A stretch of 41,297 nucleotides of DNA, from the NCBI RefSeq assembly GCF_018863395.1, contig NZ_JAHKRR010000010.1:1-41297 (forward strand). The letters run 5' to 3'. The position numbers and the translations under genes are program-made. Each line of letters begins with the position of its first letter. Position 1 is the first letter of the stretch. This document shows positions 10,899 through 30,881 of the stretch, piece by piece. The notes beneath the pieces are model-generated. The model did no database searches, was not told where the DNA came from, and saw only the letters and a program-made list of their open reading frames with translations. Origin of the DNA: Sinomicrobium weinanense. Its GTDB lineage: Bacteria; Bacteroidota; Bacteroidia; Flavobacteriales; Flavobacteriaceae.

Positions 10899-12962
10899 TC
10901 AAAATACATAAGACAGGCCGATCCTGCCAAAATAGTTTCTCCCGTTGCCCGGGTAGAAGTAACGCGGTTGACTTCCTCCAAAACCAACGGCATTGATCAG
11001 TACAGAAGCGGCATAATTTGTGTTTAACACATTATTGATCCCTGCATTGAGCCTCAATTTCACAGGCCCGATCAGGGGCAGGGAATACCTTGCAGATGTC
11101 GTAAAAATGTTATAAGCCTTACTACTTTGTGTATTGGCATCTGTTAAAGGAATATCATCCACAAACTGATGTGATATATTTAGTGCAACATCATTTCCAT
11201 ATGCAAAATCCAGTCCGGAGCTTAATCTATGCCTGGGCACACCGGTCAAAGGGTTTCCACTGTAATCATTTTCTCCATCAACGAAATCCACAAAACTGTG
11301 GTCACTTAGCGTGTATGCAAAAAATGGGGTCAATGACAATGATCCTGAAACAGGAACTGCATACCTGGCTTCCAGTTCCAGCCCTTTATGCCTTGTTTTT
11401 CCTGCATTCCTGCCAATATACTGGTCCTCCCCCACACGTTGGGCCACCAACAGGTCTTTGATGTGCATCAGGTAAACCGTGGCATTTACCTGCATGGCCC
11501 CGTCAAACAACAAAAACTTTCCTCCTAATTCGTAATTCATTCCTTTCTCCTGGGAAATATCGGGGTTGACAACCCCATCGGGAGTCAATGTTTCCTCCAG
11601 GCCCGGGTTGGAAAATCCCCGGTCCACACTGGCAAACAATGATCCGTTTTGCCATCGGTACCGGAGTTTCATACTTGGCAAAAGAATAGGTTTAAAGCTC
11701 CGCCTTGCCGATTTATTGTCTTCTCCGATAGTGAACAGATCCTTAAAGTTATACGTCGTTTTATTAAGGTTCAGGCCTACCTGGGCGGAAAGGTTCCCGG
11801 TCAAAGGAACTTCAAATGTTGCAAAGATGTTCAGTTGCCTCCGGAATTCCTGGTTATCGCTCAATCTATTTCCCTGAAGGCTTCCGTTGCCATTGTTGTC
11901 TTCGTATAAATTTTCAAAAGTACCCCAGTGGTATTCATCTCTATATGCCTCTCCTCCTAATGTAAAATTCCCGCTAAACAGGTTTCCCCTGAAAACAGAT
12001 CTCAGCCCGAACCCATGGGTAAATTCATCCAGAATATTGAAAGGTCTTGGCTCATAATGGTCCAGATAGGTGTAAAAGACACTTGTGCTGTTCTGAAGTG
12101 AACCTTTGAACTGATGAGAATATGTAACCCCTGCCAAAGTATATTTATTGGCCTCATATCCCCGGGCAGCCAGCCAATTGGCATCTGCATGTGTGGGATT
12201 CTCTTCAAAATCCGTCTGGTTCAGGGAGCTGGGAATTTGAGCTGTATAGTCAATGTAGTTGAACAAAAAGTCCATCCTGTCATTGTTCCCCAGTTTCACA
12301 GAGGAGGTGAGCAATAGGCCATCCCTTTCAAATTGATTGTTCTGCCGGTACCCTTCGGTTTTGAGGTGATTGTAACTAAGGTTTATGTTAAAACCGTTTT
12401 CGGAATGCCTGAAGGCCAGGTTGTTCTTGAACATCTTATACGAACCAAAGGTGGAGGAATTGGTAAAGGATGTTTTGCCCGCTTCAGGTGCCCTGGTCCT
12501 CAGGATAAGGGCGCCTCCCAGATTGGTACCAAAAGAGGAACCTTTGGGGCCTTTGATCACCTCAATGGCCCCGAGGTTTTCCATGTCATAGGCTTCGATA
12601 GTTGAAAACCCGGCACCATTGGTCACGGGAATATTATTAAAATATAATCGCAGCTTATCCGTACCATAGGGTGTTCTTGCGCCGACCCCCCTGATGGTAA
12701 TGCGGTTGGTGTTCAATGCCCCGGAAAGCAGATATACCCCTGAGATCTGATTGATGGAAGACGCAATGTCCAGCGGACTGTACCTTTCCATTTCTTTGAT
12801 CCCTATGGTACCCGAAGGAGTTATGCCCACAGCCTTTTTTTCTATCCCTTTCTCAATAAGTATAACTTCTGACAAAGAGGTGATCGAGTCTTTTTTTTGA
12901 TCCTGGGCGTAAAAAAAAGCAGGTAAAACAAGGAAGGGCAGAAAAAAACGATAGATTGTCAT
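10899..12962 (-). CDS. TonB-dependent outer-membrane receptor
   Basis: About 687 aa from the chosen start MTIYRFFLPFLVLPAFFYAQ, a clear signal peptide. The open frame extends 29 codons upstream, but those codons are basic and partly overlap the previous gene. The plug domain holds the typical segments ITIRGVGARTPYGTDKLRLYFNNIPV (in two parts), IEVIKGPKGSSFGTNLGGALIL. The rest is a 22-strand-type barrel ending in an aromatic residue (IGLSYVF). There is no STN domain and no CarboxypepD_reg domain, so it is a FecA-class transporter without signalling, unlike the SusC in the same locus. It follows a BASS-type inner-membrane carrier with 46 bp between them, so the two may import the same small solute in series. 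Confidence 0.88.
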   Translation of the reverse strand: MTIYRFFLPFLVLPAFFYAQDQKKDSITSLSEVILIEKGIEKKAVGITPSGTIGIKEMERYSPLDIASSINQISGVYLLSGALNTNRITIRGVGARTPYGTDKLRLYFNNIPVTNGAGFSTIEAYDMENLGAIEVIKGPKGSSFGTNLGGALILRTRAPEAGKTSFTNSSTFGSYKMFKNNLAFRHSENGFNINLSYNHLKTEGYRQNNQFERDGLLLTSSVKLGNNDRMDFLFNYIDYTAQIPSSLNQTDFEENPTHADANWLAARGYEANKYTLAGVTYSHQFKGSLQNSTSVFYTYLDHYEPRPFNILDEFTHGFGLRSVFRGNLFSGNFTLGGEAYRDEYHWGTFENLYEDNNGNGSLQGNRLSDNQEFRRQLNIFATFEVPLTGNLSAQVGLNLNKTTYNFKDLFTIGEDNKSARRSFKPILLPSMKLRYRWQNGSLFASVDRGFSNPGLEETLTPDGVVNPDISQEKGMNYELGGKFLLFDGAMQVNATVYLMHIKDLLVAQRVGEDQYIGRNAGKTRHKGLELEARYAVPVSGSLSLTPFFAYTLSDHSFVDFVDGENDYSGNPLTGVPRHRLSSGLDFAYGNDVALNISHQFVDDIPLTDANTQSSKAYNIFTTSARYSLPLIGPVKLRLNAGINNVLNTNYAASVLINAVGFGGSQPRYFYPGNGRNYFGRIGLSYVF

Positions 12963-13008
12963 ATACCGGGATATAAGCATGAGTTTAACGTGATATTGAA
13001 TTTTATTT

Positions 13009-14133
13009 TCATTTGACTTTTTCCTGCACCTTGTATTCTTCCTCCTCATCGGTTCCCTTCGGGGACCTTTTGTGCCAGTAAGATGCCAGTATAGATCCTG
13101 TAATGTTCATCAATGGGCCGAAGACTGCCGGCGCAAGCCCCATTGTGGCTATCTTGCCCAAAGAGTTCGCAATGCCGGAGGCAAGCCCTCCGTTCTGCAT
13201 CCCCACTTCTATCGATATCGTCCGTGCATCGCGTTCGGACATGCCCATGAGGCGTGCAAACCAATATCCCAGGGTATAGCCGAAGAGGTTATGTACGAGC
13301 ACCAGCAGCATCAGGATGCCCCCGATGTCCAGCAGACTGTCCCTTCCCGCGGCGGTGATCACCACTATGATCAACCCTATGCCGAGCATGGAGATGACCG
13401 GCATGGCCCTGTCCAGCCATTTTGCACTGTTCCCGCGGAGCTTGTTGAACAACAGCCCCGCACCGATCGGCAGGATAATCATTTTAACGATGCTCCACAT
13501 CATGGCCAGCACGTCAATTTCAATGAACTCTCCGGCCAACAGCTTCATCAACAGTGGCGTTACGAAGGGCGCCAACAGCGTGGCTATGGATGTGATCGTT
13601 ATTGACAGGGCCAGATTTGCTTTGGCCAGAAATGCCATTACATTAGAGGCAACTCCGCTGGGAGAGCAGCCGATCAGCACTATGCCTGCCGCTATCTCCG
13701 GGGGGAAGTCACTGATCCAGGCAAGTGCAAAACCCATCAATGGCATAATCATCAATTGAGCCGCTACCCCGACCAGAACCCCTTTCGGGGTCTTGATAAT
13801 CCCCACAAAATCATTTACGCTCATGGAAGTTCCCATTCCGAACATAATCACCTGGATCAATGGGATGATCAGGACGGTGAACTTAAAATCACCTATGTTT
13901 GTGAAGTACTGCGGGTAGTACAGGGCCAACGTTACCCCGGCAAATATCATGGCCGTAAATACGTTGCCGTTCAATGACCTGTACCCACTGAAACCATAGG
14001 CACAAAAAACAAAGATCCCTATGATCACAGGTCCGGCATTGGCCAGGTTACCCGTCAGGGCCATTCCGATGGCAATGCAAAGTAAAAGTAGTGAGATCCC
14101 CAATGAAGCTGAGTATATGTTCAATTTTTTCAA
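13009..14133 (-). CDS. Bile acid:sodium symporter (BASS/SBF) family transporter
   Basis: 374 aa with about ten hydrophobic segments. The family signature is plain: IVLIGCSPSGVASNVMAFLA followed by KANLALSITITSIAT (about residues 150-184), and later EVGMQNGGLASGIA (about 310-323). BASS proteins import organic anions, such as bile acids, pyruvate or pantothenate-type acids, with sodium. The protein is slightly longer than bacterial relatives, with two extra N-terminal helices and a short charged tail. In this locus it is the only clear small-molecule carrier of the inner membrane, so it probably brings in the acidic end product of the periplasmic enzymes. The substrate is not deducible. Confidence 0.9.
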   Translation of the reverse strand: MKKLNIYSASLGISLLLLCIAIGMALTGNLANAGPVIIGIFVFCAYGFSGYRSLNGNVFTAMIFAGVTLALYYPQYFTNIGDFKFTVLIIPLIQVIMFGMGTSMSVNDFVGIIKTPKGVLVGVAAQLMIMPLMGFALAWISDFPPEIAAGIVLIGCSPSGVASNVMAFLAKANLALSITITSIATLLAPFVTPLLMKLLAGEFIEIDVLAMMWSIVKMIILPIGAGLLFNKLRGNSAKWLDRAMPVISMLGIGLIIVVITAAGRDSLLDIGGILMLLVLVHNLFGYTLGYWFARLMGMSERDARTISIEVGMQNGGLASGIANSLGKIATMGLAPAVFGPLMNITGSILASYWHKRSPKGTDEEEEYKVQEKVK

Positions 14134-14219
14134 AAGTCAAGTTTGTTTTGGTTATTCTTATTTTTATTCTTCCATTGAAAATGGCATGGCCTTAGATACT
14201 GTCTAATAATTTATGGAGA

Positions 14220-14375
14220 GGTCCAAATTCTATCAAGGTCTCATTAACGATTGTCCGATCGGCAGGATGGGATGCTGAAACAACCCTTCGACATTTCGAC
14301 TGCACTTCGGCAGGCTCAGCATACCACACTCAGGATGACAGTTCAGCATGACGGAATGCGTTTTTTTTTGAAACA
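14220..14375. repeat. Intergenic repeat copy, GTCATGCTGAA type
   Basis: The segment 14237-14282 closely matches the reverse complement of 32718-32763 (shared GATGGGATGCTGAAACA and GGTCTCAT...AACGAT), so two copies of one family lie in opposite orientation 18 kb apart. The element contains several self-complementary stretches such as TTCAGCATGAC. It lies between two genes of one transcription direction and may act as a terminator or mRNA-processing site. Confidence 0.75.
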
Positions 14376-14379
14376 GCGC

Positions 14380-14871
14380 CTATAATTTATAGGCCTGTCT
14401 CGCCAAAAGCAGCCATTGCCCCTCATCGGAGAGTTTGTAAATCTGCATATTTCCGATCCGGATCTCCAATGGCTCTCCATCCCTGGTAGCGCTGGCCTGA
14501 AAAATATGTCGCACCACGGCCGTGTTCCCCGACAGAGTAATGGTCTGTTCCGGGGCCGTCACCTCCAGGAAATCAAAGGGGCCATTGAGCACATCAACGA
14601 TGAACGCCTCCCTGTCCTGCACCAGTCCGCTGGAATGGCCATAGGTCAACTTTTCCGAACAGAGCCTTTCCAAAACTTCACGGCCCGGGTTTTCCAGGGC
14701 CCTGTTAAATTCTGATACCGCGGCCTCAACATCTGCTACCGTGGGCACGGGAGCTGCTGTTTCTGCCTTTGGCGTTGTCCGGTCTTTCTTTTGGTTCCCT
14801 TCTCCACAGGACACAAGGGAGAGCAGGGCCATTGCCCAAAACACAATGGCCATAGTGTTCTTTATAGTCAT
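14380..14871 (-). CDS. Lipoprotein with an NTF2/SnoaL-like (DUF4440-type) domain
   Basis: About 163 aa from MTIKNTMAIVFWAMALLSLVSC, a lipoprotein signal. The open frame extends upstream into the previous gene, but that part lacks a signal and is unlikely. The mature domain (VADVEAAVSEFNRALENPGRE, LTYGHSSGLVQDREAFI, AVVRHIFQAS, WLLLARQAYKL) has the DUF4440/SnoaL pattern: a long first helix, then a curved sheet. Such domains bind small ligands and are sometimes lyases or isomerases. In this operon it could be a periplasmic accessory enzyme. It starts 23 bp after an RraA-like gene. No catalytic residue can be assigned. Confidence 0.8.
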   Translation of the reverse strand: MTIKNTMAIVFWAMALLSLVSCGEGNQKKDRTTPKAETAAPVPTVADVEAAVSEFNRALENPGREVLERLCSEKLTYGHSSGLVQDREAFIVDVLNGPFDFLEVTAPEQTITLSGNTAVVRHIFQASATRDGEPLEIRIGNMQIYKLSDEGQWLLLARQAYKL

Positions 14872-14894
14872 AAATCTCTGGTTTTTGTTTATCT

Positions 14895-15827
14895 CTACCA
14901 GGTCCGCTTGCTCAAGACCTTGTCCAGTTCTGCCCTGGTCATCCGGCCAAGCTCCGGCCTTTCCTTCAGCCATGCAATAAAGTCGTCCTTGATCTTATCG
15001 TTCCACTTACTGTCTATCTCACCGGTGGTGTACTTTTTGGATTTTACCATCTCAAAACCGAATACATCCTTAAGTGCCACAAATTCTGCGGTGGCCACCA
15101 CCTGTTCGGCCAAATGGGCCGGTATAAAGAGTACTCCTTCCTGTTTAGCTATCACCAGGTCTCCCGGAAGTACAATCGCTTCCCCCATTCTAATGGGTAC
15201 GTTCAGCCCCATGGCTACCATCTCTTCCAAAAAAGAGGGGTGGAAATCCCGGACAAAGGCATTGAAACCATCCAGGTCCTTAATCGCTTCCAGATCCCGG
15301 GCACTGCCGTTGAAGATCACCCCGTTGCCCGACTTGGTAAAAATCGATGTGGCCAGGGTGGCCCCCATCAGGGTACCTGCAGCAATCTTACCGAAACCAT
15401 CGGCTACATAGACATCTCCGGGAGACAGCATTTCAATGGGCCATGAATTGGTGTTTCCTTTCCGGCCCTGTGCCTGTCCGCGTTCTTTGATCTTACTTTC
15501 AACGTCCGGGCGGCTCGGCATAAACATGGCCGTAAGTGCACGGCCCACCACGGGCACATCGTCGTGCACCATCTTCCAGTTGCCTTCGAACTGGTTTGTA
15601 TACCCTTCGTTCTTCAATACCGTCCAGGCATCGTCTATTGCTATTTTCCCGGCACGCTCCAGTAAATCGTCAGGAATGTGCGGACGTCCGTCCGGAAAGC
15701 GTTCGCCTTTCCATTCAGAGGTCAAAAAAACAAGCTCTTCTTTCGGGATCGTCTGGCCGAAAAGACCAGCGGATATAAAGAATACAAAAACTGTTGCAAT
15801 GTTCAATCTGAACATGAATTTCGTCAT
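14895..15827 (-). CDS. Exported RraA-like protein (HMG-aldolase superfamily)
   Basis: About 310 aa from MTKFMFRLNIATVFVFFISAGLFGQ, a Sec signal peptide. The RraA fold is recognised by PGDVYVADGFGKIAAGTLMG and GNGVIFNGSARDLEAIKD; the R and D of the latter are the substrate and metal residues of RraA-like aldolases. The family includes 4-hydroxy-4-methyl-2-oxoglutarate aldolases/oxaloacetate decarboxylases and the RNase E inhibitor RraA. The protein is longer than the usual 160-220 aa, with added N- and C-terminal helices, and it is exported, which rules out RNase E control. A retro-aldol or decarboxylation step on a keto acid in the periplasm is the natural guess. It follows ridA-like with 29 bp between. 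Confidence 0.83.
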   Translation of the reverse strand: MTKFMFRLNIATVFVFFISAGLFGQTIPKEELVFLTSEWKGERFPDGRPHIPDDLLERAGKIAIDDAWTVLKNEGYTNQFEGNWKMVHDDVPVVGRALTAMFMPSRPDVESKIKERGQAQGRKGNTNSWPIEMLSPGDVYVADGFGKIAAGTLMGATLATSIFTKSGNGVIFNGSARDLEAIKDLDGFNAFVRDFHPSFLEEMVAMGLNVPIRMGEAIVLPGDLVIAKQEGVLFIPAHLAEQVVATAEFVALKDVFGFEMVKSKKYTTGEIDSKWNDKIKDDFIAWLKERPELGRMTRAELDKVLSKRTW

Positions 15828-15856
15828 AATAAAACTAAATGATGTGATTACTATTT

Positions 15857-16339
15857 TTAATCCAAAGCAGCTATACAATCCATCTCTACCAATGAATTTC
15901 CCGGAACCCCTCCGTAGGTGGCGACGGTGGTCCTTACCGGAGGGTTTTTGCCGAACCGCCCCTTGTAGACCTCGTTCATGGCGTGATAATCGTTCAGGTC
16001 TGCCAGGTAGACGTTTACTTTAAGTACTTTCTCCATGGAAGATCCGTTCTTTTTGAGTTCCTTTTCCAGTTCGTTGAGGACAATCTCGGTGTGGGCCTTT
16101 ATTTCAAAAGGCTCAACATGCGCTCCCTTCCCTGCTATATACAATGTATTTCCGTGCTTAACAGCCCCGGAAAACAAAGGGACTTCCTGATCGGTCACAA
16201 TATCACCCACGACCTCTTTTTTCGGTCCGGACCCTCCGGTCATGGCTTTTGCAGCGGTTGCAGCTCCTGCTCCGAACAAAGCGGCCAAGCCCATTCCAAT
16301 TCGTTTAAGTGATGATCTTCTCGATGTTTGATTTTCCAT
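15857..16339 (-). CDS. Tat-exported RidA/YjgF-family imine deaminase
   Basis: 160 aa from MENQTSRRSSLKRIGMG; the in-frame extension upstream looks non-coding. The start carries a Tat-type signal (SRRSSLKRIG, hydrophobic GLAALFGAGAA, AKA cleavage site). The mature RidA domain is complete, with the substrate-binding Arg (R136 in PPVRTTVATYGG) and Glu (E152 in LVEMDCIAALD). RidA proteins hydrolyse enamine/imine products of PLP-dependent eliminations. Most are cytosolic. An exported one near an exported PLP enzyme suggests it clears the imine that enzyme releases in the periplasm. The downstream gene encodes an RraA-like protein. Confidence 0.88.
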   Translation of the reverse strand: MENQTSRRSSLKRIGMGLAALFGAGAATAAKAMTGGSGPKKEVVGDIVTDQEVPLFSGAVKHGNTLYIAGKGAHVEPFEIKAHTEIVLNELEKELKKNGSSMEKVLKVNVYLADLNDYHAMNEVYKGRFGKNPPVRTTVATYGGVPGNSLVEMDCIAALD

Positions 16340-16421
16340 AATACAATGTTTAAAATGATTAAATATTTGTTTACTTTTTATCAAGTTATATTTTTAATTC
16401 CTGTATAATTCTCTCTGTGTC

Positions 16422-16516
16422 ACTTTGTGCCTGCTTTGTGAATCTTTGTGGTAAAATAAAGTCTATGGCATAAAAAACCACAAAGACCACTGAGTTTTTC
16501 ACAAAGGTCACAAAGT
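16422..16516. repeat. Inverted repeat with CTTTGTG/CACAAAG motifs
   Basis: The left arm (16422-16452) holds ACTTTGTG, CTTTGTG and CTTTGTGGT. The right arm (16477-16516) reads ACCACAAAG, CACAAAGG and CACAAAGT as imperfect reverse complements. It lies between the SelA-like and RidA-like genes and would form a long hairpin in the operon RNA. A similar fragment (CACAGATTCACAAAGATTT) occurs at about 40746-40764. Confidence 0.8.
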
Positions 16517-16628: not shown

Positions 16629-18257
16629 TCAGGTTGCCAGCGGTGGTCCTCCGGGGACATTCAATTTTTTTCTATTTTGCCTGTAAGATACTTTTTTTGC
16701 ACCGAACCTGGCCGTTAAATATTCTCCAAGAAAAACGGAACCGGTTATTTCCCCGTCAGCTACTTTTCCGATAAACCAAAAATTTATGGAATTTCCCGGA
16801 ACCCTGTAATTACTTTTGAGCACCACCTCATTTCCTTCGATCATACCGATCATTTCCTGCATGGCATATTCGCTGGTGTGTGTTCCTGAAATCCAGTTTT
16901 TATCCTGTTCGAGGAAAAATTTATGGGTACTTTTACCGGTAAAAAATTCTACATCTGCTTCCCAATGGCCCGAGATATTTTCTTTTGCAGGAGTCATTTC
17001 ATCGGAACGCGGTTCCCGTTTCCCGGACAGTACATTGTAAAGCCTGTCTGCCACCAATTTGGCATTGCCGGGCCTCATTTGACTCGGGGTAATTGAAATA
17101 GAGGTACCATTGTCCTTACTCTGTGCCCCAATAGCCACCCTCGGTTTGTTACGGGCCACTTCTTCTGCGACTTCCTCTCCCCTTATATGAAGTTTGTCCG
17201 GATCCCATTTCAGGATCAACCTGGGTGCCCTGTTGTTCAGGCCGGTCGGTGTTGTTATCTCTGAAGTAATACCATTTATCCTGGTCAATTTGGAGGAAAT
17301 TTCGTCCAGCCAGCCCAACCAGGTATTCCATTCCTTATCGTGATCTCTTGTGGTCCAGGCTTCAACGGCGGCCAGCATTCCCAGCATTTCCTCTTTTCCG
17401 ATCTTGTTGTCCCTTCCCGGTCCATGATGTGGGGAACTGGCCTGCCAGGCCGCCATGAGCAGATCTTTGTTACCCAACAACAAGCCGGCACATTGCGGAC
17501 CACAGATGGCCTTTCCTCCACTATATGCGACCACTGTTGCTCCCCGTTCCAGGTGGACACAGGGAATGCTCAGGTCTTCTGCGGCTGCATCGGCAAGGAC
17601 GGGAATATTCCCGGGTTTGGCCATTTTGCCAATAACCTCCAGGGAAAGCGGTTTTCCCGTTTCATTATCGGGGCCTGTCATGATATAGATCATGGCCGTT
17701 CTCGGGTTAATGGCCTGTTTTAACTCTTCGGGGGTATCTACCGTTATGATCTTTACTCCGATATTCCGGATGGCATGGTCGTATACATTCCTTGAACTTC
17801 GCGGAATGATGACCTCATTTTTTTCAAAGTCGCCTATATGAGGTATCCTGATCAGTTTTTCGGGGTTCCCCCCGGTTACACAGGCGGCGGTGACATGTTT
17901 CATCCCTGCAGCACATCCGGCGGAGATCATTCCCCATTCGGCTTTGGTCAGTTCTGCCAGGCGGCGTCCGATGCCAAAAGCCAGTTCATCATATTGCACA
18001 AAATAACCCGATGCGGCTTCCATGGCCTCCAGAACCTCGGGTCTTTCCGTTGAGCCCCCCAGGATCGTAAAGGTTCCCCTGCAATTAATAATGGTCTCAA
18101 TTCCCAGGGACTCGTAAATATTCTGGTTCCTGGTATAAGGTTTTGCAGCCAGGGGTGCTGGGTTTTTCCAAACAGCCCCAAGCATCGAATCACTGGCCAT
18201 CAGGCTCCCCGCCAGAGGAATTACGCCTAATTGTTTAATTATTTCCCTTCGCTTCAT
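16629..18257 (-). CDS. Exported SelA/DgaE-like PLP-dependent enzyme with a C-terminal beta domain
   Basis: 542 aa. The start MKRREIIKQLGVIPLAGSLMA is Tat-like (K-R-R), expected for a cofactor enzyme folded before export. Residues about 45-415 form a fold-type I PLP domain of the SelA/D-glucosaminate-6-phosphate ammonia-lyase group: LADAAAED with D223 for the pyridine nitrogen, and VAYSGGKAICGPQCAG with K249 for the Schiff base. Residues about 427-525 are an extra beta-rich domain (ISGHWEADVEF, ISGTHTSEY, ITGSVFLGEY) resembling small lipocalin-like domains seen on secreted enzymes. The PLP family commonly pairs with a metallo-deacetylase, as it does here with the next gene upstream. An ammonia-lyase or racemase reaction is plausible; the substrate is unknown. 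Confidence 0.85.
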   Translation of the reverse strand: MKRREIIKQLGVIPLAGSLMASDSMLGAVWKNPAPLAAKPYTRNQNIYESLGIETIINCRGTFTILGGSTERPEVLEAMEAASGYFVQYDELAFGIGRRLAELTKAEWGMISAGCAAGMKHVTAACVTGGNPEKLIRIPHIGDFEKNEVIIPRSSRNVYDHAIRNIGVKIITVDTPEELKQAINPRTAMIYIMTGPDNETGKPLSLEVIGKMAKPGNIPVLADAAAEDLSIPCVHLERGATVVAYSGGKAICGPQCAGLLLGNKDLLMAAWQASSPHHGPGRDNKIGKEEMLGMLAAVEAWTTRDHDKEWNTWLGWLDEISSKLTRINGITSEITTPTGLNNRAPRLILKWDPDKLHIRGEEVAEEVARNKPRVAIGAQSKDNGTSISITPSQMRPGNAKLVADRLYNVLSGKREPRSDEMTPAKENISGHWEADVEFFTGKSTHKFFLEQDKNWISGTHTSEYAMQEMIGMIEGNEVVLKSNYRVPGNSINFWFIGKVADGEITGSVFLGEYLTARFGAKKVSYRQNRKKLNVPGGPPLAT

Positions 18258-18313
18258 GGTTGTTTTTTGGTGTTGGTTCGTATTTATTTGTCAGTTTATT
18301 TTATAAAGGGAAA

Positions 18314-18428
18314 AGATTGATAGGAGATTGATCCGGCTACGCCGGAAGATTGAATAAGATTGAAATGTTTAAGATCAATCTCCCAATGACGATCGGGATT
18401 CAATCTTCCATCAATCTCCTATCAATCT
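18314..18428. repeat. Large nested palindromic repeat with 19-bp arms
   Basis: AGATTGATAGGAGATTGAT (18314-18332) pairs exactly with 18410-18428. Inside, GGAAGATTGAAT (18344-18355) pairs exactly with 18398-18409, and CCGGC-TAC-GCCGG forms its own small hairpin. It lies between two genes of the same operon. Nineteen bases of the left arm region (18311-18329) recur at 34927-34945. It may act in RNA processing or termination. Confidence 0.9.
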
Positions 18429-18446
18429 CTTATTAATCTTATATAT

Positions 18447-19694: not shown

Positions 19695-19710
19695 TATTTA
19701 AAAGATTAAA

Positions 19711-22719: not shown

Positions 22720-23892
22720 CTACAATTTCAGTTTGATCCCTTTCTTCTCCAGCCATCCTGTAAGTGCCACCACCAGGTAAGCAAATACAAGGGAGCCCAG
22801 AAGACCAATGATGCCGGTATTTAAAACATCGGGCAACCTGAAGTTCACAAACTCCCGTGCCGGATAGATAATGTAGGGCAACAAATAGCAGGTCAGCGTA
22901 GCGGTACCTGCCGGGGCGATTATTCGGGCCCAGTTGATGATCTTCTTTTTGTCTGCGATATAGTGCAAAAGCGCAAAGAGCATAAAGCCCATCGCAGAGC
23001 ATACGGCCAGCCATGAGGGTGTTCCCCTTAATTTTGAGATCCCCCACAACGGCCGGGTCCCCAATCCGTATATCAGACAGATGACCCCAATGGCAACAAG
23101 GATGGCATATGCCTGTTTTATACTGGCTTTGGACCACTTGTCGAAGACCAGTGAAGCTACAATCCCGGCGGTGGTAAATCCGGGAACGGTACCTCCCAGG
23201 ATGGTTGAAGCATAGCTGAACACACCATCCGGTTTCAATGCCATTTCGGTCTGGCCCAATACAGAGAGGATATTAAAAACCAGCCAGGCCGCTATCATTA
23301 TTGCGAAATTCCCCCTGGCATAAAGAAAAACAAGGGCGTTGACCAGATAGGCCCAGCCTATGAGCCCCAGGATACCCCACCATTGCGTACGCATCCAATG
23401 CTCACCGGATGCCCCCCCTTTATAGATGATTGCCAGAAACAACAGGACCAGGATGCCCAAAACCTGTAACGGGAAGTGCCATTTTTTTGGAACGGGGCTT
23501 TTTTTCCAATGGGTCCAGATAAGGAATACAGCCACGGCCATGAAAATACACCAGAGGTACTTTCCTATGATGATCCCATCGTCATAGGCAGTTTCATAAT
23601 TTACCATATATACGCCTATCAGCAACAGGGAAAACGACCTGATCAGGATGTGCCTGGCTATGGTCCATTGACTATCTCCCCGACCCAACCGGTTTTTAAT
23701 GGCAAGGGGAATGCTGAGGCCAACAATGAACAGGAACAAGGGAAAGATAATATCCGAAAATCCCAGATAGTCTTCACTGGCTTTGGCATGCTCCAGCCAT
23801 TTGGGCACCTCTTTCAAGGTCCAGAAATCATTGACCCAAATCATGAAAAACATGGTCAATGCCCTTAGAATGTCTATTGATCTCAGTCGCAT
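22720..23892 (-). CDS. HGSNAT-like (DUF5009) multi-pass acyltransferase-family protein
   Basis: 390 aa with about ten membrane helices and no signal peptide. The start RLRSIDILRALTMFFMIWVN and FSDIIFPLFLFIVGLSIPLAI are characteristic of bacterial relatives of human heparan-alpha-glucosaminide N-acetyltransferase. The conserved H of the GFxxxDxxFPxFLFxxG-type region is not obvious, so activity is uncertain. HGSNAT moves an acetyl group across a membrane onto the amino group of glucosamine. In this operon, next to a deacetylase and an aminosugar-acid-type PLP enzyme, that chemistry would fit an amino sugar substrate. The gene follows susD by 14 bp. Confidence 0.84.
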   Translation of the reverse strand: MRLRSIDILRALTMFFMIWVNDFWTLKEVPKWLEHAKASEDYLGFSDIIFPLFLFIVGLSIPLAIKNRLGRGDSQWTIARHILIRSFSLLLIGVYMVNYETAYDDGIIIGKYLWCIFMAVAVFLIWTHWKKSPVPKKWHFPLQVLGILVLLFLAIIYKGGASGEHWMRTQWWGILGLIGWAYLVNALVFLYARGNFAIMIAAWLVFNILSVLGQTEMALKPDGVFSYASTILGGTVPGFTTAGIVASLVFDKWSKASIKQAYAILVAIGVICLIYGLGTRPLWGISKLRGTPSWLAVCSAMGFMLFALLHYIADKKKIINWARIIAPAGTATLTCYLLPYIIYPAREFVNFRLPDVLNTGIIGLLGSLVFAYLVVALTGWLEKKGIKLKL

Positions 23893-23906
23893 AATAATCT
23901 GCCGTA

Positions 23907-25517
23907 TTAAAAGTTAGGTCCGCCCGTATCCCACCAAAGCCTGGTGCCCCCGTTGTCGGGGCCGCCAAGTTTGGTAACGGCATCCTTAACACCTTCCGGA
24001 TTGGTTGACCGCTCGTTATCTACAAACGGTATCCTTCTTATCTGGATCTCCGTATCGACCGTACCGGCACTCTGGTTGCTCACTACCGGAAAGATCCTGG
24101 GATATCCCGTACGCCTGAATTCACTCCAGGCCTCCTGTCCATCCGGGAACACGGCGATCCATTTTTGGGTGATGATCTTTTCGAGCTTGGTCTCGTTGTT
24201 GTCGGCATCGTTCCAGGCTATGGTAATATCACTTGTCGCTGCAATATTGTTAGACGGATTTACCGGGTCTTTATAATCTGCCGGGGTGGAAACATTGTCC
24301 GCCATGTAGGTCGACACCCCACCGATACCCCGCTGCTCAAAGGAAGTGGTAATACCCATTTCGTAATTGGCCCGGGCATCTCCGGCACCGCTCCAACCTC
24401 TCAGGGCGGCTTCGGCCTTTAGAAAATACACTTCGGCTGCGGTCATTAATTGCACACTGGTCTGGTGGATATTGTCATTGATCACCGCAAAACGTATATA
24501 ATCTCCTTTCTGATCTAATTCATCGGCATACCCGCTCAACAACGGCATTCCTCCCCTTACGCCCTTTAAAGCTCCGGGGACTATGGGCTCTGTATCAGAA
24601 TCTCCGGGGTTTACTTCCAGAAAATAAGCTCCGGCCCGCGGATCATTGAACCCGGACAGCACAGACTCCATAAAGGCATTCATCCTGATATCTCCCCAGG
24701 AATTGTCAATGGTCTGCAACGGGTGTGAAACGGCACTGTTGACAAAGAAACCATCTCCATTGGTCTCTATGACCCCTAACGGGTGGTTCAGTGCTTTTTC
24801 GCCTTCGGCCTTTGCCGTGGCCGGATCGATCTTTGAAATTCGTATGGCCAGTCTGAGCCTGAGTGAATTGGCCAGTTTAACCCATTGCGAATAATCTCCG
24901 CCATAGGAGAGATCAAAGGCCGTAAACCTGGAACTGTCCAGATCTTCCATAAGATTGGCCACCCCCGTATCGAGGTCTGCAAAAAATGCGTGGTATGCTT
25001 CTTCCTGCGAGTCGTACACCCCGGCTTTTTCCAGATCGCCGAAATTCGTGTATACGATAGGGCCAAAGATATCGGACACCCTGTGCATGGCGGCCACCTT
25101 AAGTATCAGGGACACTGCGTAGAATGTGGGATATTCGTCCTTGGCCAGCTCTTCAATGGTCTCGACATTGTTCATGACATTGGAATAGGGAACAGACCAA
25201 ATGGTATTGTTCCACCCCCCTACCAGGTTATAGGTCGTATTGTTCGCCCCTGCAATGAACGGCCTTGGAGGGGTCATATAGCCCGAGTATACGTCGGCAT
25301 TCAAATTTTGCTGCAATTGGTATGACGATGCCGGATCGTATTTATAAATGTTCTCGAAAATAGGTTTATACAACGATCCTATATGCTGGAAATCGACCTC
25401 GAGCTCTTCTTCGGTTATATCTCTCGGGTTCGTATTCAGTTCATCAAAATTTTCTGTACAGGATACTAAAACTCCCAGTACAGCTATCATTATGTTTAGT
25501 TTTTTAATACTTTTCAT
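23907..25517 (-). CDS. SusD/RagB-family surface lipoprotein (SusD-like group 2)
   Basis: 536 aa with a lipobox (LGVLVSC). The N-terminal motif NFDELNTNPRDIT, the helix FYAVSLILKVAAMHRVSDIFGPIVYTNFG (in two parts), and the later FLKAEAALRGW and TQKWIAVFPDGQEAWSEFRRTGYP are typical of the SusD-like 2 group (PF12771). It caps the SusC channel encoded 9 bp upstream and captures substrate at the cell surface. Members of this group often serve peptides or glycopeptides rather than starch-type glycans, so the substrate need not be a polysaccharide. Confidence 0.94.
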   Translation of the reverse strand: MKSIKKLNIMIAVLGVLVSCTENFDELNTNPRDITEEELEVDFQHIGSLYKPIFENIYKYDPASSYQLQQNLNADVYSGYMTPPRPFIAGANNTTYNLVGGWNNTIWSVPYSNVMNNVETIEELAKDEYPTFYAVSLILKVAAMHRVSDIFGPIVYTNFGDLEKAGVYDSQEEAYHAFFADLDTGVANLMEDLDSSRFTAFDLSYGGDYSQWVKLANSLRLRLAIRISKIDPATAKAEGEKALNHPLGVIETNGDGFFVNSAVSHPLQTIDNSWGDIRMNAFMESVLSGFNDPRAGAYFLEVNPGDSDTEPIVPGALKGVRGGMPLLSGYADELDQKGDYIRFAVINDNIHQTSVQLMTAAEVYFLKAEAALRGWSGAGDARANYEMGITTSFEQRGIGGVSTYMADNVSTPADYKDPVNPSNNIAATSDITIAWNDADNNETKLEKIITQKWIAVFPDGQEAWSEFRRTGYPRIFPVVSNQSAGTVDTEIQIRRIPFVDNERSTNPEGVKDAVTKLGGPDNGGTRLWWDTGGPNF

Positions 25518-25526
25518 AAGATTTTT

Positions 25527-28500
25527 TTAGAATGTTAGCTTCACGTTGAGTCCTATACTCCTGGTTGACGGGAGCCCCAGTATATCTACCCCTTGCAGGG
25601 CATTACCCGTACTCAGTGATATATTGGGGTCATGAGGAGCATCCTTGTAAAAGAAAAACAGGTTGCTGCCTATGAGAGAAGCACTGATATTGCTGAAAAA
25701 GGAGTCCTCCTCCAGATCAAAAGAATAGCCCAGAGCCACTTCGGCAAGGCGCACATTAGTGGCACTGTAAACGTACTCTCCGGTAAAACCGTTCCTGCCG
25801 CCGGCAAGGCCATAATATTGCTGGGCGGTCATGGTAGATACATTTCCGGCAAGATCGACCACTTCCACCGAACCATTGGTGGTTTCCCTGGACGTATTGT
25901 TGCTCAATCCTTCTACGACGGCCTCAGTCATACTCACCGTTTCGCCTCCGAACTTTCCGTCGATCAGAAAATCAAGGCTAAAGTTCCCGTAAGAAAAGGA
26001 ATTGTTCCAGCCCAGTGTAAAATCGGGGTTGGCATTCCCTACTTTTTCCAGCCCGTCAACTACGTTTTCGGGATTTTCATCATTGATGATCAACGCATCG
26101 CCATCTACAACAGGCCTCCCCTGTGCATCCCTTTTCACTACCTGGGCATAGATGTCGCCAAATGAACCTCCCTCAACAAGGTACGATCCGAAAGTATTGA
26201 CACCTTTGGCAGAGACCGTGAAAAAATCCGGCTCTATAAGTCCATCGGCAATGGTTCCGTCATAGATGCTTTTCACCTCATTATCGTTGGCCGAAAAGTT
26301 CAGGGTCGTTTTCCATCTGAAGGAATCGGTCTGAACCGGGGTTGCAAAAACAGTGGCCTCCACCCCGCTGTTCACGATCTCTCCGGAATTCAATCCTGCA
26401 TTGGCTGCCCCTATAATGGCAACAGAAGTTGGAAAAGGGAAATACTGGTTTACTGTGTTGGTGTTATAATATCCGATATCAATGCCCAGGCGGTTGTTAA
26501 AAAACCTCCATTCCGTACCCACTTCAAAAGACCTTTGTTTTTCCGGTTCCGGAATGGTCCCCGGGAACGGTCTGACGGGATCTGTTGCGCTTACTCCGTT
26601 ACCAAAGACAATTTCCCGGGCCGGGTTAATCTGGTTGGGGGCAAAATCATTACCCACCTCTGCATAAGAGGCCCTGACCTTGGCAAAGGAGATCCCATTA
26701 CCCAGATCGAACATTTCGCTCAGTATCCCGGTTACCCCAAAAGAGGGATAAAAGAAGGAATTGTTTTCCGGGGGCAACGTGGAAGACCAGTCATTACGTG
26801 CCGTCAGATCAACAAATATCTTTTCGTCATACCCCAAAGTGGCACTTGCAAAAACAGAGTTCACCCTTCTGCTCAAACTCGATTGCGTCAGGGTAACCTG
26901 TGGGTTGGCGTTAAAGTTCTGAATGGCAAACACATTGGCAAACTGTAAGCCTCCCTGGGTGCCCGAATCAGCATTGAACACTTCGGTAGTTGATTTTCTG
27001 ATGCTGGCACCTATGTTGGCATTTAATGAAAAAGCCTCCGTAAAATTATAGTCGATGTTGGCAATAATGTCGCCATACAACTGCTTTACATCTTGTTTAT
27101 TAAGTATATATCTACCGTTGGCATGTGAGAGGGTAGCTTCGGTGGTGGCGTAGACCTTGCGCTCAAAATCCATTAAAGACTGATCATAGGTCCCCCTGGT
27201 CTGAAGTGACAACCAATCAGTGACTTTAAAACTCAGGTTCAAAGAGGCCAATAATTTTTTATTGGTATCGGTACTGGGGTTTCTGTGCATGATCCAGTAA
27301 GGGTTCTGCTCTATATCTGAAGTGCCCCTGAACCAACGTTGGGACTGAATATTCCTGTCCGGATTATATTCTTCGAAATCGGCGTAGTCCGAAAGTTTTC
27401 CTGCATCGGCCGGAAATCCGTAAGCCCCGACCAAAGGGTTGAAGTACAGGCCCGGGACCGCCCTGTTGGTGATCTTTTGGGTGGAAGCCATTACTCCGGC
27501 ATTCACCGCCAATACATCATCAAAGAACTTAGCGGTTTCTCTAAGGTTGATGGTGTGCTGTTTTAAATCGTTCTCCGGCAGTATCCCCGAGGCAAAGCTA
27601 TTGCTGTACGAAAAATAGGTCTGGGCCTTTTCTGTGCCTCCGGATATGGAGAGGGAGTTGATATTGGTCAGTCCGGATTCGAAAAAATCGTCTGCATTAT
27701 CTTCCGCTGTATCGTTCAAATCCAGCATATACGCGGCCCTTTCCACTGTTAAATTAGATGAAAAGTCTACCTTAAAGGTGCCTTCTTTCCCTTTTTTGGT
27801 CGTAATCAGGATCACACCATTCAGGCCTGCATTACCGTAGAGTGCAGAAGCCGATGCCCCTTTCAGTACGGTCAGGGACTCTATATCGTCCGGGTTGATC
27901 AGGGACAGTACATCCCCCCCGTCTCCCCGGGAACTGCCGAAATTGCTATCCGGCTGTGAAGCAGTCGGGTTGGACAGGGGTATACCGTCTACCACATACA
28001 AAGGCTGATTATTTCCAAATGAATTATTTCCCCTTAAAGTTACCTTAACCGACCCTCCGACACCGGATGCACTTCGGGTAATAGCTACTCCTGCCACCTT
28101 CCCGGACAAGCTGTTGATGGGGTTGGATTGTTTTACCCGGCTCAGTTCTTCGGCATTGATATCCTGGGCTGCATAGGTCAATGAGCTTCTGGTTTTCTGT
28201 ATCCCGAGGGCTGTAACGATGACCTCGTTTAACTGGCTGGTATTTTCAACAAGGGTCACGTCTATCCTGGATTGTCCGCCCACAGCAACCTCCTGCGTCC
28301 GGAAACCAATATAACTAATGACCAAAGTGACATTGGGACCAGCGCTAAGAGTAAAATTTCCATCAAAATCGGTCTGGGTCCCATTGGTCGTGCCTTTTTC
28401 CACAATGTTGGCGCCGACCAAAGGAAGCCCCTGTTCATCCATAACAGTACCGCTCACCTCCTGCTGCATTTCCCTGACGACCTCTACCCTGGGCTTATCG

Positions 28501-28877
28501 TCAGTGCCTGCTTTTTTCTTTAGTAAAATGGTATTGTTAGCGGTGAATTCGTAGGTAAAATCAATAGGAGTTAAAAGCATGTCCAGCAGTGTTCTGGCCT
28601 TGACAATTCCTCGTTTAACAAAAATATCCGGGGCATCTTCTAACAGATCATTCCTGTAAATAAACTTATAATCCGCCTGTTTATTCATAAGATTAAAGAT
28701 CTGTTTTGCATTCAAGGTCTTGTCTTCTGTGATCAGTATGTCTGCATTTTGGGAAAAGCCATCCTCCGGCCCTAAGGCAAAGGCGAGTGTGCAGCATAAG
28801 AAAACAAAGGTTCTCATCAGAAATTTTAGGAAGCGGAATCCAATACCGGATCGCTCCGTATTCAAGTTAATTTTCAT
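25527..28877 (-). CDS. SusC/RagA-family TonB-dependent transporter with an STN signalling domain
   Basis: 1116 aa. After the signal (FLMRTFVFLCCTLAFALG) come an STN domain (about residues 50-120, ADILITEDKTLNAKQIFNLM in two parts), a carboxypeptidase-regulatory-like domain (about 139-212, SGTVMDEQGLPLVGANIVEKG), a TonB-box-like NEVIVTALGIQ, and the plug (YVVDGIPL, LKGASASALYGNAGLNGVILITTKKG in two parts). The barrel ends in LNVKLTF. The STN domain contacts FecR in the periplasm and reports substrate binding, so this receptor is both the importer and the likely sensor for the divergent ECF sigma factor. SusD follows 9 bp downstream. Confidence 0.95.
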   Translation of the reverse strand: MKINLNTERSGIGFRFLKFLMRTFVFLCCTLAFALGPEDGFSQNADILITEDKTLNAKQIFNLMNKQADYKFIYRNDLLEDAPDIFVKRGIVKARTLLDMLLTPIDFTYEFTANNTILLKKKAGTDDKPRVEVVREMQQEVSGTVMDEQGLPLVGANIVEKGTTNGTQTDFDGNFTLSAGPNVTLVISYIGFRTQEVAVGGQSRIDVTLVENTSQLNEVIVTALGIQKTRSSLTYAAQDINAEELSRVKQSNPINSLSGKVAGVAITRSASGVGGSVKVTLRGNNSFGNNQPLYVVDGIPLSNPTASQPDSNFGSSRGDGGDVLSLINPDDIESLTVLKGASASALYGNAGLNGVILITTKKGKEGTFKVDFSSNLTVERAAYMLDLNDTAEDNADDFFESGLTNINSLSISGGTEKAQTYFSYSNSFASGILPENDLKQHTINLRETAKFFDDVLAVNAGVMASTQKITNRAVPGLYFNPLVGAYGFPADAGKLSDYADFEEYNPDRNIQSQRWFRGTSDIEQNPYWIMHRNPSTDTNKKLLASLNLSFKVTDWLSLQTRGTYDQSLMDFERKVYATTEATLSHANGRYILNKQDVKQLYGDIIANIDYNFTEAFSLNANIGASIRKSTTEVFNADSGTQGGLQFANVFAIQNFNANPQVTLTQSSLSRRVNSVFASATLGYDEKIFVDLTARNDWSSTLPPENNSFFYPSFGVTGILSEMFDLGNGISFAKVRASYAEVGNDFAPNQINPAREIVFGNGVSATDPVRPFPGTIPEPEKQRSFEVGTEWRFFNNRLGIDIGYYNTNTVNQYFPFPTSVAIIGAANAGLNSGEIVNSGVEATVFATPVQTDSFRWKTTLNFSANDNEVKSIYDGTIADGLIEPDFFTVSAKGVNTFGSYLVEGGSFGDIYAQVVKRDAQGRPVVDGDALIINDENPENVVDGLEKVGNANPDFTLGWNNSFSYGNFSLDFLIDGKFGGETVSMTEAVVEGLSNNTSRETTNGSVEVVDLAGNVSTMTAQQYYGLAGGRNGFTGEYVYSATNVRLAEVALGYSFDLEEDSFFSNISASLIGSNLFFFYKDAPHDPNISLSTGNALQGVDILGLPSTRSIGLNVKLTF

Positions 28878-29001
28878 AAATTAGTGTTTGGTTTGGTTAG
28901 ACTTTGTTTAACTAATCCTCTTTGGGCAAAGGCTATTGCGGTGGAATGTACTAGCCTTTCCCTTTTTTACACATCGATGTTTATTCGTATAGGCATCTGT
29001 A

Positions 29002-30150
29002 TTATTTAATATGAACTGTTTTATCCCTGATTTCAAATTTCACCTCTCCCTGGCCGGCAACTTCAATCAAATCGAGAATATCGTCAATGGACCTGGTCCT
29101 TTCCAGTATTCCCGTAAAAATGAAATCCTTGCGTTCTGCCAATTCAAAAACAACCTTAATGTCATACCATCTCGAAAGCGCTTTCATGATCTCATCCAGG
29201 GATTCGTCCTCAAAAACAAACACCCCGTTCACCCATAAAATCGCCCGGGAGGCATCGACATTCACGATTTGTACGTTACCCGTGGCCTTATCGACCCTGG
29301 ACTGTTGATCGGGGTGCAGTATTTTATGGACTTCCCCCTTTTCAAGTGCTATTTTTCCACCGGCAAGAGTGGTTACAATTTCCTTGTCGTCTGTATAAGC
29401 ACTTATATTGAATTCGGTGCCCAGGACATTTATTCTCTGATCATTGGAAATAACACTGAACCCCGAACCCTTGTGGGCTGAGCCCGGAGAAACCTCGAAA
29501 TACGCCTCCCCGTAAACAAGTTCCACTTCCCTGGTCTGCCCTTCCCGGAATGCAGAAGGGTATTTTAGTTTGGTGTCCGAATTGAGCCACACTTTTGTTC
29601 CGTCCGACAGCTTTACGGAAAATTGCCCCCCTCTTGGTACGGTCAGGTCGTGGTACAAAATTTTACCGGCCTTCTTCCCCGCCGGTCCTTGTTTTGAATA
29701 GACAAGCTGTTCTCCATTGCTGTTGAGTGTTCCCTTTCTAAAACTTTTCCCTTTTGTCAAAGCCACCTGGTCCCCGTTTTCTAAAGTGAGTACGGCTTTA
29801 TCCGATCCGACCACAATTTTGTCGGAGGGTTCCGGGGCTTCCTTATCCCTGTAAACCCAATTGAACGCAAAGCCGATGAACAGGAGTGCCATTGCAGCTA
29901 TTGAAATGCGCTTGTACGTATTCAGTCTCCGCTTTCTTTCCCTGGCCCTGACCTTTTTTTTAATGGACTCCTTGGCTTTGTATAAATTGTATTTTGTCAT
30001 GCAGTTCGCTGTCAGATAATGTATTCTAACTAAATTATTAAAGATTGTTATATTTTCAGGATCGCATAACCAAACATCCAATTGCTCCAATTCTTCCTGA
30101 TTGGCTTCTTTACCTAGAAATTTGACAATTATTTTAAGGCCTTTTGACAT
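29002..30150 (-). CDS. FecR-family anti-sigma factor
   Basis: 382 aa. Residues 1-80 are a cytoplasmic, basic, helical anti-sigma region; one membrane helix lies at about 82-100 (ISIAAMALLFIGFAFNWVY). The periplasmic part has the FecR domain (VPRGGQFSVKLSDGTKVWLN, YGEAYFEVSP, INVLGTEFNISAY) and the DUF4974 C-terminal domain (LDEIMKALSRWYDIKVVFE) that receives the STN signal. It is transcribed away from the ECF sigma gene and toward susC, the standard trans-envelope switch. The start is 122 bp from the sigma start. Confidence 0.95.
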   Translation of the reverse strand: MSKGLKIIVKFLGKEANQEELEQLDVWLCDPENITIFNNLVRIHYLTANCMTKYNLYKAKESIKKKVRARERKRRLNTYKRISIAAMALLFIGFAFNWVYRDKEAPEPSDKIVVGSDKAVLTLENGDQVALTKGKSFRKGTLNSNGEQLVYSKQGPAGKKAGKILYHDLTVPRGGQFSVKLSDGTKVWLNSDTKLKYPSAFREGQTREVELVYGEAYFEVSPGSAHKGSGFSVISNDQRINVLGTEFNISAYTDDKEIVTTLAGGKIALEKGEVHKILHPDQQSRVDKATGNVQIVNVDASRAILWVNGVFVFEDESLDEIMKALSRWYDIKVVFELAERKDFIFTGILERTRSIDDILDLIEVAGQGEVKFEIRDKTVHIK

Positions 30151-30272
30151 TTCGTTACACGATTACAACCTAAATACGTATGAAATTTTAAATACCCTGC
30201 ATTTTTTTAAGATTTTTTTTTATAATTTTCACAACGAAAACGATAAAGCTCATTATAAATCATCATCGTTAC
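30151..30272. promoter_or_regulatory. Divergent promoter region between fecR-like and sigma genes
   Basis: This 122-bp, very AT-rich spacer carries the starts of both genes. I see no complete TTTG/TAnnTTTG pair. TAATTTTC near 30223-30230 on the plus strand is a partial -7 match. Promoters recognised by the ECF factor itself may lie here and before susC (28878-29001). Confidence 0.4.
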
Positions 30273-30881
30273 ATGGATTTTGCTGATAATAATTACTTTC
30301 TGATAAAAAGATTGATCAAAGGTGATGAGAAAGCGTATGAATATTTAATGGACGCCTATTATCAAAGGCTTTGCGTGTATGCATTTACATTGACAAACGA
30401 CCATAGTAAGGCTGAGGATATCGTTCAAAATGTCTTTGTAAAAGTCTGGACGGGCAGAAAAAAACTCAACCCTGATTTTCTGATCAGGAACTTTCTGTAT
30501 AAATCCGTTTATAACGAATTCATCAATGAATACAGAAAGAACAAATCCGTTCTGTACCTGGAGAAAAAATACTTCGAAGCCATTGATATGGTTATGGAGA
30601 ACGAGCAGGATAATTTTGAGGAGATCATAAAACTGGTCTACCTTGAGATCAACAATCTTCCGTCCAAATGCAAGCACATTTTCCTGCTTAACAAAAAAGA
30701 AGGCCTGACACACACTGAGATCTCCGAGCTTCTGGGCATCTCCATCAAAACCATTGAAGCTCATATTAGCCGGGCCTTTAAAATCCTCGAAGAAAAACTG
30801 GGGCAGAAATATAAAACCATTCTTTTTATCCTGTTTTCCTTTAAAAATGAGTTGGAAAAGCAAATTTCCGTTGCGCATTGA
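30273..30881 (+). CDS. ECF RNA polymerase sigma factor, Bacteroidota FecI-type
   Basis: 202 aa. Region 2 contains YEYLMDAYYQRLCVYAFTLT and the -10-binding helix SKAEDIVQNVFVKVW (about residues 45-60). Region 4 contains LPSKCKHIFLLNKKEGLTHTEISELLGISIKTIEAHISRA (in parts, about 127-167), the helix-turn-helix that reads -35. It is divergent from its FecR partner, which should hold it until the SusC STN domain signals substrate. It probably drives the 29002-10899 locus and perhaps the plus-strand gene downstream. Confidence 0.95.
   Translation: MDFADNNYFLIKRLIKGDEKAYEYLMDAYYQRLCVYAFTLTNDHSKAEDIVQNVFVKVWTGRKKLNPDFLIRNFLYKSVYNEFINEYRKNKSVLYLEKKYFEAIDMVMENEQDNFEEIIKLVYLEINNLPSKCKHIFLLNKKEGLTHTEISELLGISIKTIEAHISRAFKILEEKLGQKYKTILFILFSFKNELEKQISVAH

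Follow-up and report, generated by a model that had tools for sequence, protein, structure and literature searches.

A SusCD-linked locus of Sinomicrobium weinanense and a putative exported oxidative route for an N-acyl amino sugar or its aldonic acid

Two cytoplasmic pathways, Ong and Dga, and one type of Bacteroidota gene cluster are among the closest described relatives of the locus reported here. In the Ong pathway of Pseudoalteromonas, which serves oxidative chitin use, N-acetylglucosaminate is deacetylated by OngB, an enzyme of the D-aminoacylase type, and deaminated to 2-keto-3-deoxygluconate (KDG) by OngC, a pyridoxal phosphate (PLP) enzyme of fold type III; a KDG kinase then phosphorylates KDG directly, and a RidA protein is required for growth, its role being given as unknown (PMC9537276). 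The Dga route applies a PLP enzyme to a phosphorylated substrate. Polysaccharide utilisation loci combine SusC and SusD genes with glycan hydrolases. The window analysed here is a whole stretch of 41,297 nucleotides from S. weinanense (contig NZ_JAHKRR010000010.1; G000:C2:1-41297). On its minus strand it contains a locus that is headed by an anti-sigma factor gene with a divergent sigma factor gene and that combines SusC and SusD genes with a series of small-molecule enzymes predicted to be exported. We consider it on balance probable that this sigma/anti-sigma- and SusCD-linked locus encodes an exported oxidative route for an N-acyl amino sugar or its aldonic acid.

On the best reading, the locus is a counterpart of the Ong and Dga routes that would work outside the cytoplasm and is built from other enzyme families; it belongs to neither by enzyme family nor, probably, by location. 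As in the Ong pathway, a probable deacylase, a putative PLP deaminase and a RidA protein are clustered; the three are adjacent here and lie together in all eight genomes with a SelA-like gene in the co-occurrence sample described below. However, the enzymes are not homologues of OngB and OngC. The probable deacylase is of the COG3964 type and the PLP enzyme of the SelA/DgaE type, both are predicted to be exported, and the locus adds sugar oxidation, an SMP-30 lactonase, an RraA-like protein and a BASS transporter. With the Dga route it shares the PLP fold and family, the retained PLP lysine and, in some loci, the aldolase logic, whereas the enzyme described here has a Tat (twin-arginine translocation) signal and a C-terminal beta domain and nearly lacks His162, His163 and the phosphate-binding arginines. 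An extracytoplasmic function (ECF) sigma factor, FecR, SusC and SusD are features in common with polysaccharide utilisation loci; unlike those, this locus has no glycoside hydrolase inside and carries small-molecule enzymes, predicted to be exported, instead. A fourth relative, Cap15 (8t7j), is the closest fold match of the SelA-like model and belongs to a different pathway. A search covering open-licence papers, including PMC5507952, found no description of the gene set and nothing useful on the biochemistry of COG3964.

In the proposed route, a beta-propeller protein with a C-terminal cytochrome c (20775–22589, minus strand, like all genes below unless stated; Pfam GSDH 2.6e-10 plus a CxxCH cytochrome c; lipobox), a predicted exported lipoprotein and probable pyrroloquinoline quinone (PQQ) sugar dehydrogenase, would oxidise the sugar at C1 to a lactone outside the cytoplasm. 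A predicted exported SMP-30/SGL lactonase lipoprotein (19711–20730; Pfam SGL 6.4e-44) would open the lactone, and a COG3964-type amidohydrolase (18447–19694; PRK09237 436.6 bits, cut-off 371), likewise predicted to be exported and a probable deacylase, would strip the N-acyl group. From the 2-amino-3-hydroxy acid, a predicted Tat-exported SelA/DgaE-like PLP enzyme (16629–18257; TIGR01437 148 bits, below the cut-off of 385) would eliminate water, and a predicted Tat-exported enamine/imine hydrolase of the RidA family (15857–16339, start re-set from 16384; Pfam 1.3e-19) would hydrolyse the freed enamine or imine to a 2-keto-3-deoxy hexonate and ammonia. A PanS-like BASS-family transporter (13009–14133; Pfam SBF 4.4e-40; TIGR00841 232 bits, cut-off 326; PanS 225 bits, cut-off 400) would import this acid, or else the pyruvate that a predicted Sec-exported RraA-like protein of the pyruvate-aldolase fold (14895–15827, start re-set; Pfam RraA-like 5.1e-18) may split off from it. 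In the cytoplasm, KDG kinase and 2-keto-3-deoxy-6-phosphogluconate (KDPG) aldolase would complete the route. What was observed is the gene set, its predicted export signals and how well these are kept, the joint occurrence of the genes, the catalytic residues, and, in related loci, genes for aldolases and for kinases of KDG or 2-keto-3-deoxygalactonate (KDGal); every reaction, the substrate and the roles of RraA and BASS are inferred. The original prediction had already placed lactone opening, deacylation and ammonia loss in this order; kinase and aldolase genes in related loci fit that order.

Related loci, of which 111 were compared, suggest what the product would be. In the closest one (L031), the SelA-like protein is 84% identical to that of the window and the genes are 72–89% identical and in the same order; beyond the BASS gene follow a PfkB kinase, for which the best NCBIfam models are KDG and KDGal kinases, all below cut-off, and then a KDPG aldolase (368 bits, cut-off 275). 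In two others (L082 and L092), the stretch between the amidohydrolase and SelA genes encodes a 2-keto-3-deoxygalactonokinase (DGOK; PF05035, 9.7e-51), an eda-type aldolase (175 bits against a cut-off of 156) and an MFS protein nearest to a D-galactonate transporter model, below its cut-off. Ten of the 111 loci carry a KDPG/KHG-type aldolase. The window has no KDG kinase gene; besides the one in L031, a KDG-kinase homologue (44%) lies on another contig of the S. weinanense genome, beside a KDPG aldolase gene, in a cluster in which we named KduI, KduD and UxaC by eye from sequence. The same genome has five matches to glycoside hydrolase family GH20.

Further evidence comes from loci in which another enzyme takes the place of SelA. 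RraA occurs in 31 of the 111 loci: 15 with SelA, 13 with a dehydratase-type gene of the enolase superfamily, one with both and two with neither. The SelA-type loci were found via SelA and the dehydratase-type loci via RraA, from 15 regions fetched around RraA matches outside SelA clusters, with about a dozen further RraA matches left out. In 13 of these 15 regions (L111–L119, L122, L126, L129 and L130), an enolase-superfamily gene of the sugar-acid-dehydratase type stands where SelA would be, with an exported-type RraA gene adjoining and often a BASS gene. Pfam confirmed nine of the enzymes; for four, galactonate dehydratase was the best NCBIfam model, below cut-off, and in L116 a neighbouring Tat protein scored above the mannonate dehydratase cut-off. 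Twelve of the 13 genes have twin-arginine starts, the remaining one, in L112, being found by tblastn only, with its N-terminus unread. Such loci apparently serve a parallel route for neutral sugar acids, and one type of acid appears to be reached either by SelA plus RidA or by the dehydratase. Taken together, the KDG/KDGal kinases, the aldolases and the dehydratase replacement point to a 2-keto-3-deoxy sugar acid as the product.

The original prediction offered separate travel of the genes as grounds for abandoning it, and a sample of 395 genomes of the phylum gave no such grounds. At thresholds of E ≤ 1e-60 for the SelA-like protein, 1e-80 for the amidohydrolase and 1e-50 for RraA, with the best three, the best four and up to five candidates scored per genome, respectively, the SelA-like gene was present in 8 genomes, the amidohydrolase in 12 and RraA in 24. 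The COG3964 amidohydrolase was found in all eight SelA genomes and in 4 of the 387 others (Fisher 3.6e-14), and RraA in all eight and in 16 of the 387 (Fisher 5.4e-11), relatedness being ignored in both tests. All 15 amidohydrolase matches in the SelA genomes, at no more than four candidates per genome, lie 0–4.9 kb from a SelA gene, while the 10 RraA matches divide into five within 4.3 kb of SelA and five that are not. An exported-type RidA gene lies near SelA in all eight genomes, within the stretches read. A further SusCD locus, in the S. weinanense genome itself, contains two SelA genes and one amidohydrolase gene. Four genomes of one genus have the amidohydrolase without a Tat-SelA match at threshold, and in the three whose surrounding sequence was read (L124, L125 and L128) no core partner lies nearby.

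Scanned more widely with 14 aligned SelA proteins, GTDB-species genomes yielded at least 571 confirmed matches, the best 80 of which were kept as loci. The long SelA form among these 80 occurs in Bacteroidota and also in records from Acidobacteria, Gemmatimonadetes, Latescibacterota and Caldilineaceae. Many contigs of the fetched loci end early. The 64 Bacteroidota-type loci (one from Balneolaceae) carry the amidohydrolase in 46 cases, the propeller-cytochrome c gene in 19, RidA in 16, BASS in 13, RraA in 12 and SGL in 8. The full set is a Bacteroidota feature, and the long SelA form is more widespread than the set. None of the 80 loci, on contigs that are often short, has both SGL (8 loci) and a member of a lactonase-like Amidohydro_2 family (8 loci), which gives the impression that the two lactonases substitute for each other. 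In two loci from other phyla (L052 and L054), a SelA gene without a signal adjoins an Amidohydro_2 gene of this family.

The locus had been described as encoding enzymes that all carry export signals. The genes indeed lie on the minus strand in the order first described, and every soluble enzyme passes a simple, home-made rule that accepts a lipobox, a hydrophobic Sec-type N-terminus or a twin-arginine N-terminus. Signal conservation was scored in homologues from the 80 fetched loci, on the region before the conserved core. All 86 Bacteroidota SelA proteins have the RR motif and 78 pass the hydrophobicity rule too; six SelA rows, from any phylum, have no N-terminal extension. Likewise, the signal is kept in RidA (18/18), RraA (12/12), SGL (8/8), the propeller-cytochrome c protein (19/19, plus one without an extension) and the amidohydrolase (89/90, plus two without an extension). 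A cruder rule, applied to the first 45 residues, passed 84/106 SelA, 85/92 amidohydrolase, 17/19 RidA, 11/12 RraA, 8/9 SGL and 19/20 propeller-cytochrome c proteins. On sets that look cytoplasmic it passed 1/9, 0/2, 0/7 and 5/6; because it gives false positives, the conservation of the signals outweighs any single call.

The predicted structure of the SelA-like protein (pLDDT 89.6) includes a C-terminal beta domain at about residues 430–523. When 119 members of the family were aligned with DGL, the PLP lysine (217 in PMC9529869, 213 by chain index) was present in all 119. In contrast, DGL His162 is kept in two and His163 in one; of the phosphate-binding arginines, Arg301 is kept in 10, Arg332 in 28 and Arg346 in none, so that no protein has all three. 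We rejected the assignment of the enzyme to DGL/DgaE itself, as its scores fall below the cut-offs and these residues are not kept. From the same positions we infer that the exported SelA-like lyases act on unphosphorylated acids. DGL without His163 is active and releases free enamine, and its authors name RidA as the class of protein that removes such species (PMC9529869). The near absence of His163 and of the phosphate-binding arginines may explain the exported RidA, to which, we predict, the SelA-like lyase may hand its enamine. RR22-23 and R151 of RidA are kept in at least 97% of nine sequences. In the second SelA locus of the S. weinanense genome (L024, 13332–13592) a shortened RidA was seen, with a Tat-type start fused in frame to the C-terminal half.

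The model of the propeller protein (pLDDT 81.2) has the GSDH/AA12 propeller fold, with AA12 PQQ pyranose dehydrogenases and PQQ aldose dehydrogenases as its best matches; TM against AA12 is 0.74–0.75 by target and 0.51 by query, a moderate coverage. By sequence, only its cytochrome domain matches solved relatives. Across 17 sequences, H172, R243 and R419 do not vary. In the SGL lactonase, E79, N209 and D256 are kept in at least 97% of nine sequences. The amidohydrolase of the window combines its PRK09237 score with all six of H87, H89, K189, H244, H280 and D306, which we take to be metal ligands; among 90 proteins, H87, H89, H244 and D306 are present in all, K189 in 79 and H280 in 74.

For RraA, R194-D195 align with Arg123-Asp124 of the HMG/CHA aldolase 3noj, a pair described as essential there, and are kept in at least 97% of 13 sequences. 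Retention of the pair allows the retro-aldol cleavage to pyruvate that had been proposed for this protein, which is now one of at least two options, the closest locus also having a cytoplasmic kinase and aldolase. Either the intact acid or pyruvate may be what is imported. In L121 (7001–13262), an RraA 72% identical to that of the window has in its vicinity a cupin and a cytochrome-bearing alcohol/glucose dehydrogenase of the PQQ type.

Several findings weigh against the proposed route, and part of them feeds other explanations. The gene set is often incomplete: near SelA in the eight genomes, SGL and the propeller-cytochrome c gene are present in seven each, BASS in six and RraA in five; in the wider scan, 51 of the 64 Bacteroidota loci have at least one of the six core partners, only 18 have at least three and 13 have none, and of the 16 loci from other phyla a single one has any, BASS. 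Some loci contain two or three SelA and up to six amidohydrolase genes, which a linear pathway fails to explain. A KDG-type kinase is found only in L031 (1/111) and DGOK in two of the 111, and the known activity of the COG3964 amidohydrolase family is on O-acetyl (R)-2-hydroxy acids, not on N-acetyl sugar acids. The sparse partners and the variable order and copy number would suit a loose collection of exported sugar enzymes at a SusCD locus that do not form one pathway. Against this, the genes occur together and cluster tightly in the 395 genomes, which are an unselected sample, their order is conserved in L031 and the export signals are retained jointly; we regard such a collection as very improbable. 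The same export and enzyme logic might instead serve to deacylate and deaminate, outside, N-acyl D-amino acids or other N- or O-acyl 2-amino or 2-hydroxy acids, the dehydrogenase and lactonase then acting on a second substrate. This possibility draws on acyl-acid hydrolases within the amidohydrolase family, on multiple SelA and amidohydrolase copies that suggest several substrates, and on the 13 Bacteroidota loci in which SelA lacks dehydrogenase, lactonase and the other partners; moreover, the analogous deaminase OngC takes D-serine and D-threonine too (PMC9537276). We nevertheless think it unlikely, as the KDG/KDGal kinase, KDPG aldolase and galactonate-type transporter genes of related loci, and the sugar-acid dehydratase-type genes that replace SelA beside RraA, point to hexonates.

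The SelA-like enzyme itself supplies further adverse points: the best Foldseek match is Cap15 (8t7j; E 6.7e-28, TM by target 0.88), with DGL close behind (7lc0; 1.0e-26, 0.86); the arginine that binds the carboxylate in DGL, Arg226, is present in only 37 of the 119 proteins and is Asn in that of the window; and H161 (108/119) and H306 (117/119) could stand in for His163. With the proton donor of DGL not kept, the fold ranking leaves room for a Cap15-like oxidative decarboxylase that uses oxygen and PLP, rather than an ammonia-lyase, in which case the locus would make amides or shortened acids. By sequence, however, DGL leads (206.6 vs 175.2 bits; phmmer 1.5e-29 vs 3.4e-27), the best NCBIfam model is that of the DgaE family (TIGR01437, as above, with NF047797 at 130 bits, cut-off 600), and both the neighbouring RidA genes and the genes at the KDG level accord with a lyase; such a decarboxylase is a live alternative, yet an unlikely one. 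A closer variant keeps the N-acyl amino sugar route and has RraA split the 2-keto-3-deoxy acid outside the cytoplasm into pyruvate and an aldehyde, with BASS importing pyruvate rather than the intact acid. Besides the conserved Arg-Asp pair, it is favoured by the company of RraA and BASS (15 of 16 SelA-type loci with RraA, 7 of 13 dehydratase-type loci) and by the dehydratase-type stretches, about 14 kb each, in which neither KDG kinase nor KDPG aldolase was found. On the other side, RraA and a cytoplasmic KDPG aldolase coexist in L031 and six related loci, and an RraA-like protein from a Flavobacterium that degrades alginate, FlDet, proved to be a dehydratase/decarboxylase specific for 2-keto-3-deoxy-D-glucarate and inactive on KDG (PMC8563752). 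We hold this variant to be a serious possibility, short of preferring it.

Among the remaining genes, Pfam confirmed the proposed control genes, an ECF sigma factor (30273–30881, plus strand; Sigma70_r2/r4_2) divergent from a FecR-type anti-sigma factor (29002–30150; FecR 2.8e-16, FecR_C). A SusC-type TonB-linked outer-membrane transporter (25527–28877; Plug, CarbopepD_reg_2, TonB barrel) and a SusD-type outer-membrane lipoprotein (23907–25517; SusD-like 1.4e-179) follow. The next gene encodes an HGSNAT/NagX-like membrane protein (22720–23892; HGSNAT_cat 2.9e-9), which had been taken as a hint of glucosamine chemistry; we rejected that clue because the protein is the best match of an open reading frame in only 1 of the 80 related loci, and we treat it as accessory rather than core. 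While the genes originally named are all present, two recurrent partners had not been considered: a DUF4440 lipoprotein (14380–14871, start re-set; DUF4440 1.1e-13), whose gene occurs in 12 of the 64 Bacteroidota loci, and a predicted exported CBM9-like lipoprotein (31208–31981, plus strand; CBM9_2 1.4e-5), which lies outside the end of the locus as first drawn and has a family member in 13 of the 111 loci by tblastn. At the other end, a TonB-dependent receptor, not counted as core (10899–12962, start re-set), is nearest among solved structures to YncD/PqqU (1e-28 and 2.4e-27), with FecA next (1.8e-12), and is the best match of no open reading frame in the related loci examined. PqqU is a PQQ importer marked by Y99, R304 and R365 (PMC12124388); here, in a weak stretch of the alignment, Y99 is kept, R304 falls in a gap and R365 is Asn. 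K274 is Glu, as in many homologues. The kinship to YncD/PqqU would fit PQQ scavenging and remains a lead; with the signature residues differing, we did not accept the receptor as a certain PQQ importer.

Short gaps join the genes within three runs (SusC-SusD-HGSNAT, GSDH-SGL-amidohydrolase and RidA-RraA-DUF4440), and 130–246 bases separate the runs; the RidA, RraA, DUF4440 and TonB receptor genes likely start further in than first called. Promoter and terminator scans gave no excess over shuffles (35 vs 32.1 and 25 vs 23.8). The gap between the amidohydrolase and SelA genes (18258–18446) carries a dispersed repeat with 45 matches in the same genome among those listed, one of them beside the second SelA locus. 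None of the 14 genes matched a glycoside hydrolase family in the Pfam scans, in line with the original description; a GH2-type glycosidase gene lies outside, at 32893–34722, about 2 kb right of the sigma gene. To the left lies type VI secretion cargo: VgrG-like (6346–8133), Tlde1-like (8651–9487) and TssD/Hcp (10280–10666).

PLP enzymes and RidA proteins are usually regarded as cytoplasmic. More broadly, and tentatively, an Entner-Doudoroff-like route may in its upper half proceed outside the cytoplasm in Bacteroidota, with cytoplasmic-looking kin elsewhere: exported sugar oxidation and lactone opening would lead to a Tat-exported enolase-superfamily dehydratase for neutral sugar acids, or to a Tat-exported PLP ammonia-lyase with exported RidA for amino sugar acids, the two converging on exported RraA and BASS, with ammonia, acyl acid and enamine freed outside. 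If this is true, a Tat-exported PLP enzyme and RidA would move deamination and enamine handling out of the main compartment, and a way of using amino sugars that does not begin with uptake and phosphorylation would open up. The co-conserved RidA predicts that the lyase releases free enamine and that RidA is needed outside. Exported families so far named by fold only, namely COG3964, RraA, SMP-30, DUF4440 and BASS, would thereby acquire a function.

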